Positions 31,648-33,153 of a stretch of 35,834 nucleotides of DNA are shown piece after piece. The notes under the pieces are model-generated. The model was not told where the DNA came from. It saw nothing but the letters and a program-made list of their open reading frames with translations, and ran no database searches. How positions within the stretch are numbered: the stretch's first letter is position 1; every line of letters starts with the position of its first letter. The position numbers were made by a program, and so were the translations under genes. Location: NCBI GenBank assembly GCA_009786195.1, contig WQTP01000040.1, forward strand, positions 1 to 35,834. Direction: 5' to 3'. The DNA is from Candidatus Saccharimonadota bacterium (GTDB lineage Bacteria > Patescibacteriota > Saccharimonadia > Saccharimonadales > Saccharimonadaceae).

Positions 31648-32577
31648 CTATTTGAGCGCCCACATATTCGCTCCCAGCGCACGGATGCGACCGTTCACTT
31701 CGAGCATGGTCATAGCGACGTGGTAATCGGCCGCGGAAAGTTTGGTGGTGCGGAGGATTTCATCGCCGTCCGCAACACCGCCGGCTAAGCAACGCAAAAT
31801 GGCGGTTTCAGCGTCAGTACGACCACGAATAGTTCGAACTAATTCGGCCGAAGATTGTTTGATAGTAGTTACGTCGGGAAAACTGGCGAGGAATTTCTCG
31901 GTGACAGGAGCGTTTCGACTAGCGTAAATGTCGCGCAACTTTTCCATCACATCGTCAACCGATAGGACTGGCGTCGCACCCTGAGCGATTAGGCGGTTGC
32001 AACCAATACTTAAGGGCGAAATGATGTTTCCCGGCACCGCCATCAACTCCTTGTTCTGGGTCAAAGCATGCGCCGCGGTGTTCAGTGTGCCAGATTGAGC
32101 GCCGGCCTCGACGACGATAACGACGTCACTAAGGGCGGTGATAAGGCGATTGCGCCACAAGAAATTACCGCGATAAACCGGCGTGTCGGGTTCGTATTCA
32201 CTGATAACTGCCCCACCCTGTTTAATAATTTCTTCGCGCAGTGCCCAAGTTGTTCGCGGATATTTATTAGCCAGACCGTTACCGACGATGCCAATGGTGA
32301 TGCCGTCGCCCTCGAGCGCACCCTGAGCCGCCAAACTGTCGTGACCAATTGCCAGGCCGCTGACGATGATAACACCGCGTGCCGCCAATGCCGCGCTGAG
32401 GCGCAGAGTCACCCCCCGACCATATTCAGTGGGTTTTCTCGACCCAACGATGGCCACAGATGGGCCTGGTTCAGGTAATTTTCCTTGATACCATAAACAT
32501 TTTGGTGGTTTGTCAATAACAGAGGTGCGCTGGAGAAATTTATCGTCCTGGGGTGAGATTTTCTTGATATTATTCAT
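31648..32577 (-). CDS. dprA: DNA processing protein DprA
   Basis: VAIVGSRKPTEYGRGVTLRLSAALAARGVIIVSGLAIGHDSLAAQGAL, AGAQSGTLNTAAHALTQNKELMAVPGNI. Confidence 0.93.
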   Translation of the reverse strand: MNNIKKISPQDDKFLQRTSVIDKPPKCLWYQGKLPEPGPSVAIVGSRKPTEYGRGVTLRLSAALAARGVIIVSGLAIGHDSLAAQGALEGDGITIGIVGNGLANKYPRTTWALREEIIKQGGAVISEYEPDTPVYRGNFLWRNRLITALSDVVIVVEAGAQSGTLNTAAHALTQNKELMAVPGNIISPLSIGCNRLIAQGATPVLSVDDVMEKLRDIYASRNAPVTEKFLASFPDVTTIKQSSAELVRTIRGRTDAETAILRCLAGGVADGDEILRTTKLSAADYHVAMTMLEVNGRIRALGANMWALK

Positions 32578-32595: not shown

Positions 32596-32624
32596 TTGAC
32601 AAATTAACCCGGCTGTGATACAAT
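32596..32624 (+). promoter_or_regulatory. Near-consensus promoter TTGACA-N17-TACAAT for ncRNA candidate
   Basis: -35 32596-32601, -10 32619-32624. Confidence 0.8.
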
Positions 32625-32630
32625 GTTCGC

Positions 32631-32972
32631 GTGATCGTGTGATATTACACACGAGATGTACCTTATACCCCCATTTTAACCTCAAGCGCGAATGTTGGCA
32701 AGTCCACATTTCGCGCCTGATGTGTTAGGTTACGCGCGGAGAAAGTATCTACCCTCCACTTTTCGCTACATCAGTTCGCAGTTCAATAACGAATCGCGAG
32801 CGCTCACGGTAGCAATCGGCGCGTATCTAACCCTCTCGACCGGCGGGCCCCAAGTGTGAGGTGGGTCGCGCTTGCGTCTCGTTTCGATGCAGCCCCTATG
32901 GGGTGTGTCGAGAGGTCGAATAACCCGCTAGTCGGAGCGATGCCCACCCTTGCTCAGGCCGGCGGGTTTTTT
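32631..32972 (+). ncRNA. Unidentified structured non-coding RNA, about 345 nt
   Basis: Own promoter and terminator (AACCCGC...GCGGGTT-TTTT), no ORF, many complementary segments including CCTCTCGAC/GTCGAGAGG and GCGCGAATGT/ACATTtCGCGC. Confidence 0.7.
32922..32972 (+). terminator. Intrinsic terminator of ncRNA candidate
   Basis: AACCCGC (32922-32928) pairs with GCGGGTT (32962-32968) followed by T-run; inner GAGC/GCTC. Confidence 0.7.
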
Positions 32973-32978
32973 GATGAC

Positions 32979-33008
32979 TTGACACGCTGGGCTAACGTCT
33001 GCTAGAAT
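32979..33008 (+). promoter_or_regulatory. trpB leader promoter TTGACA-N18-TAGAAT
   Basis: -35 32979-32984, -10 33003-33008. Confidence 0.8.
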
Positions 33009-33015
33009 ACTGACC

Positions 33016-33069
33016 ATGCTTAAACAAAATAACAACTTGTGGACCTGGCTCTGGCTTTTGCCGGACTAG
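33016..33069 (+). CDS. trpL: trp leader peptide MLKQNNNLWTWLWLLPD
   Basis: 17-aa ORF with three Trp codons within five (WTWLW), leaderless start, upstream of trpB. Confidence 0.85.
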   Translation: MLKQNNNLWTWLWLLPD

Positions 33070-33134
33070 GTTTGCTGTTGCTATTTTGCACCCACCGCGC
33101 GCCTAGTCTGGCCATAACTCGCCCAGACTATTTT
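33060..33134 (+). promoter_or_regulatory. Transcription attenuator with mutually exclusive hairpins
   Basis: A 33060-33070 GCCGGACTAGG pairs with B 33102-33112 CCTAGTCTGGC; B (33104-33111) alternatively pairs with C 33123-33130 CCAGACTA followed by TTTT. Confidence 0.85.
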
Positions 33135-33153
33135 AATTATAAGGAGAAAATTC

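Follow-up and report, generated by a model that had tools for sequence, protein, structure and literature searches.

What does the segment between dprA and the leader of trpB (positions 32596-32972) encode in the genome of a Candidatus Saccharimonadota bacterium, is the product a known molecule or a new one, and what might its function be? The segment lies in a 35,834-nucleotide (nt) stretch of DNA that is analysed here in its entirety (hereafter, the window; assembly GCA_009786195.1, contig WQTP01000040.1). An earlier note, made from the letters of the window alone, described a structured non-coding RNA (ncRNA) of about 345 nt, either a divergent essential RNA or a new lineage-specific one. 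That the locus encodes a real, conserved, structured ncRNA now appears virtually certain. The segment is predicted to be a stand-alone ncRNA gene with a strong promoter and a terminator of its own, the near-consensus TTGACA-N17-TACAAT and the GC-rich hairpin claimed originally both being present, and the predicted transcript is about the expected size (~340 nt). The folding energy of the segment is -139.3 kcal/mol, with z of -3.7 compared with dinucleotide shuffles, 0 of 100 of which equalled it. The TTGAC -35 element and the TG-extended -10 element are found in 55/55 relatives. Because homologues across an order share the promoter, the helices, the loops and the terminator, the locus is far beyond chance. 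It does contain short open reading frames (ORFs), the longest one of 55 amino acids, but the variation in this region consists of compensatory changes and frame-breaking indels.

The extracted copies of this RNA share a recurring plan (Table 1). In the 5' part, the promoter is followed by helix P1, the C-rich element E1, helix P2 (YUAAC/GUUAG) and a long helix P3 that contains P4, with the element E2 in its loop; the 3' part consists of a CUAAY segment, helix P5 around a variable domain, and the terminator, with the element E4 in its loop. Conservation of structure, which the earlier note took as a touchstone of its proposal, is evident: over 57 distinct sequences, 92.6% of the cells are paired, compared with 74.6% in column shuffles and 26-46% for slid partners, and 218 cells contain double changes, compared with 64 in shuffles. 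Fitting the alignment to the tested structure inflates these counts; even so, the slid controls and the variety of pair types lie far apart. Evolution thus supports the predicted fold, with many compensatory changes in P3 (double changes in 10/11 model pairs), P4 (4/5 model pairs) and P5 (five positions, in the 57 sequences), whereas P1 and P2 are consistent with it. All 55 of 55 relatives have a counterpart of P1, a leader hairpin with 5 or more base pairs and varied sequence (mean z -3.1); in P2, 99.6% of the cells are paired, and the five core pairs hardly vary and show few double changes. P5 has the consensus CCCUUURACC/GGUYGAAGGG, and the domain that it encloses differs strongly between families.

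Of the complementary segments noticed originally, CGTGTG..CACACG corresponds to P1, GCGCGAATGT/ACATTtCGCGC to the extension of P2 in the window, CCTCTCGAC/GTCGAGAGG to P5, and the long-range pairing of GGTTACGCGC with GCGCGTA..TAACC to P3 and an alternative extension, all of them conserved helices of the family. The letters of one more pair, CTGATGT/ACATCAG, are present, but this pair was left out because it would not nest with P2 and does not appear in L002 and L003, the closest relatives. Two further interactions are proposed as hypotheses. In the predicted ensembles of 55 relatives, GUUAG pairs with the CUAAC on either side with nearly equal probabilities, 0.41 and 0.53, so that the CUAAC-GUUAG-CUAAY segment may be bistable. 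The sequence GGUGGG, which might form a pseudoknot with the terminator loop GCCCACC, is found outside that loop in 54 of the 57 sequences, and the remaining three keep a 6-nt complement by inspection.

Table 1. Features of the RNA locus and the adjacent gene in the window
Feature	Coordinates	Strand	Remarks
dprA, divergent neighbour	31648..32577	-	Pfam DNA_processg_A
Promoter TTGACA-N17-TACAAT, TG-extended -10	32596..32624	+	11/12 consensus positions
Predicted ncRNA transcript, ~340 nt	32631..32972	+	predicted transcription start ~32631, inferred from the -10 box
P1, 5' leader hairpin (CGTGTG..CACACG)	32635..32655	+	
E1, conserved single-stranded ACCUUAUACCCCC	32660..32672	+	between P1 and P2
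P2, UUAAC/GUUAG	32676..32728	+	closes variable hairpin (32683-32719)
P3, UACGCGC with GCGCGUA	32731..32825	+	strands 32731-32737 and 32819-32825
P4, hairpin GAAAGU/ACUUUUC	32741..32764	+	
E2, P4 loop AUCUACCCUCC	32747..32757	+	like the anti-Shine-Dalgarno end of 16S ribosomal RNA
CUAAC, second possible partner of GUUAG (32724-32728)	32827..32831	+	candidate alternative to P2
P5, CCUCUCGAC with GUCGAGAGG	32832..32915	+	strands 32832-32840 and 32907-32915, around lineage-variable domain
GGUGGGU	32860..32866	+	candidate partner of E4 in a pseudoknot
Intrinsic terminator, GC-rich stem and U6 (T6 in DNA)	32924..32972	+	
E4, conserved terminator loop GAUGCCCACCC	32939..32949	+	

Does this RNA belong to a known family? 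An Rfam scan had been named as the test that the proposal could fail; none of the 4227 families of Rfam 15 matches the segment at its own thresholds, the only matches at E up to 10 being two chance ones on the opposite strand, and none matches any of 17 diverse relatives. No earlier description turned up in a search limited to open-access papers. When 61 related genomes were searched at the nucleotide level, copies within the same genus showed 74-80% identity, and many other genera had short blocks of conserved sequence. With the first of two covariance models, both of which cover the 5' domain only, the RNA was found in 119 of the 148 sampled Saccharimonadales genomes (95/115 among the good genomes), usually in one copy per genome; the second model added family members beyond the nucleotide search as well as weak matches in some genera missed by the first one. 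In a scan of 380 Patescibacteria genomes, 24/24 matches fell inside Saccharimonadales, and five genomes from other orders of the class yielded no match, an absence that rules out only relatives near enough for the models. The carriers include Candidatus Saccharibacteria, Microsaccharimonas and the oral TM7 taxa HOT 348, 350 and 352. The length ranges from ~260 to 420 nt across relatives; in several variant genera (L009, L010, L011 and L020), the 3' part is kept whereas the 5' part is altered. Of the two options in the earlier note, the lack of Rfam matches, the strong covariation and the restriction to one order support the second: as judged by these comparisons, this is a new RNA family, a lineage-specific ncRNA that is restricted to Saccharimonadales and present order-wide.

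The first option, a diverged RNase P RNA, transfer-messenger RNA (tmRNA), signal recognition particle (SRP) RNA or 6S RNA, is extremely unlikely. The size and conservation of the new RNA are of an order comparable to those of such molecules, and the SRP and 6S models give nothing convincing in these genomes. Nevertheless, just as no RNase P, tmRNA or SRP signatures had been recognized by eye, the covariance models find no match at the locus, and the genes for RNase P RNA (RF00010; G000:C43:24791-25170, 252.9 bits) and tmRNA (RF00023; G000:C43:21582-21985) lie on a different contig of this genome, which excludes these two. The small and large SRP RNA models (RF00169, RF01854) detect nothing in sets of 21 and 31 related genomes. 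Because the Ffh M domain was likewise not found (0/13 Saccharimonadales genomes, with 14/14 positive controls), a missed SRP RNA is very unlikely; many bacteria of the Candidate Phyla Radiation (CPR) have been reported to lack SRP subunits (PMC8080830). The 6S model (RF00013) does not match at the locus, and its sub-threshold match in 1 of 21 genomes is on a different contig from the copy of the new RNA in that genome, so that this identity is unsupported. As an observation in its own right, neither SRP RNA nor the M domain of Ffh was detected in the sampled relatives of the window genome (G000-G048), a situation known in outline for CPR bacteria.

The genomic context raises the possibility of a cis element that would control dprA, or the topA-dprA-pth cluster, via divergent or antisense transcription. 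The usual gene order is topA, dprA, RNA, pth, der, with all four protein-coding genes directed opposite to the RNA, and dprA is its divergent neighbour at 56 of the loci tested. This explanation is highly unlikely and already largely refuted: four genomes that are 99-100% complete (G024, G131, G054 and G066) carry the RNA, with no DprA domain detected anywhere. Beside the RNA promoter in G024 and G006 (L014 and L015), just a 5'-end stub of dprA remains; G024 yielded no intact dprA, and in G006 the sole match elsewhere, on a separate contig, is DprA-like and partial. Beside the RNA at L009, dprA was not detected, and in G013, it lies on a different contig. Given this persistence without detectable dprA, the RNA most likely acts in trans.

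Two observations concern the surroundings of the gene. The -35 region is palindromic (TTGAC-N4/5-GTCAA, for example, TTGACATAATGTCAA) in 23/55 relatives (L012, L013, L014, L018, L039 and others) and could be an operator for a dimeric regulator; a regulon of this palindrome was considered and rejected, with just one further TTGAC-N5-GTCAA site in genome G156. In the window genome and its closest relative, trpB is situated between the RNA and pth. The region upstream of trpB in the window (32979-33153) has a second promoter, TTGACA-18-TAGAAT, followed by a short ORF that contains three Trp codons, MLKQNNNLWTWLWLLPD (33016-33069). This leader folds strongly (z -4.0) and ends in TAGTCTGG..CCAGACTATTTT; this Saccharibacterium thus seems to have a Trp attenuator of the classical kind.

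Clues to the function come from E1, E2 and E4, C-rich motifs that are invariant or nearly so and are predicted to be unpaired, with mean unpaired probabilities of 0.70 (C tract of E1), 0.93 (E2) and 0.84 (E4) against a background of 0.35. The order-wide form of E2 is CUACCCUCC, with UACCCUCC invariant, and in two variant genera, E2 carries exactly AUUACCUCC, the 3' end of 16S ribosomal RNA (rRNA) seen in a relative; in E4, GCCCACCC is present in 57/57 sequences. The exact conservation extends past the C runs, as in ACCUUAUAC.

The function tentatively favoured here, with a probability somewhat short of even, is that of a trans-acting, base-pairing regulator of translation. By pairing with G-rich Shine-Dalgarno regions, E1, E2 and E4 would prevent ribosomes from binding, in the manner of LhrC and 6C/B11, with the bistable CUAAC-GUUAG-CUAAY segment and the candidate GGUGGG-E4 pseudoknot as possible modulators. 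Pairing at ribosome-binding sites is preferred because LhrC of Listeria shows the same C-rich unpaired layout, along with its own promoter and terminator; LhrC is multicopy, however, whereas the new RNA is mostly single-copy, measures ~260-420 nt and combines a large variable domain with two conserved long-range helices, P3 and P5. The actinobacterial 6C/B11 RNA also has C-rich loops that can reach ribosome-binding sites, which is where those of B11 act (PMC10470900), but consists of two hairpins with C runs, whereas here ACCCCC, ACCCUCC and GCCCACCC are embedded in a multi-helix RNA; the Rfam models of the LhrC and 6C/B11 families do not match it. Complements of E1 and E2, counted as 6-mers, are, respectively, 7 and 4 times more common in ribosome-binding regions than inside genes. 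Several results weigh against such regulation. Shuffled motifs do at least as well as the real ones in 87/300 (E1), 91/300 (E2) and 112/300 (E4) trials, so that the enrichment is explained by C content, and complements of E4 are hardly enriched in ribosome-binding regions at all. The best conserved targets in an ortholog comparison of three genomes, secY (E2), a likely ribonucleotide reductase (E1) and pilT (E2), are not clearly above shuffles (5/60 and 11/60), and secY is not significant over 30 genomes (6/100 versus shuffles). Pairing with 16S and 23S rRNA, in one genome, is no better than with shuffles; furthermore, the RNA is bigger and more elaborately folded than the known regulators with C-rich loops, and E4 has a candidate intramolecular partner, GGUGGG.

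Almost as likely as antisense regulation is a housekeeping role specific to the lineage, with the RNA serving as scaffold or active part of a ribonucleoprotein (RNP), in which E1, E2 and E4 would make protein or tertiary contacts instead of pairing with messenger RNA. Such a role would be in keeping with the order-wide, mostly single-copy presence in a fixed genomic place, the very strong promoter, the exact conservation outside the C runs, the large lineage-variable P5 domain, the candidate terminal pseudoknot and the lack of specific complementarity to messenger RNA or rRNA in the comparisons above. Yet no partner protein is known, and some genera (L009-L011, L020) keep the RNA despite the loss of E1 and changes in the P4 region, which is a better fit to redundant C-rich sites than to a fixed active centre. 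Large structured RNAs specific to particular lineages, for example, OLE, raiA, GOLLD and ROOL, are long and strongly covarying, with a function not evident from sequence. The new RNA resembles them in all these respects, but matches none of them in Rfam and differs in lineage and architecture. A broader possibility, rather doubtful at present, is a new, perhaps essential RNA class, either the core of an undescribed RNP or a global regulator that would switch GUUAG between its CUAAC partners, in a lineage where SRP is undetectable. Many Saccharimonadales secY leaders (L319-L348) have GAGGG, not GGAGG, before the start codon, which matches CCCUC of E2, although this match does not stand out significantly from shuffles.

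This RNA belongs in Rfam, and annotation pipelines that depend on Rfam will miss its gene. Saccharibacteria (TM7) are widespread, ultrasmall epibiotic parasites, and the genomes in the present sample are mostly 0.5 to 1.3 Mb in size. That the RNA is kept across the main order, in one position, even after the loss of a neighbouring gene, points to an important function that so far has not been described; several oral human taxa carry the RNA, so that this function would be testable in cultured strains.
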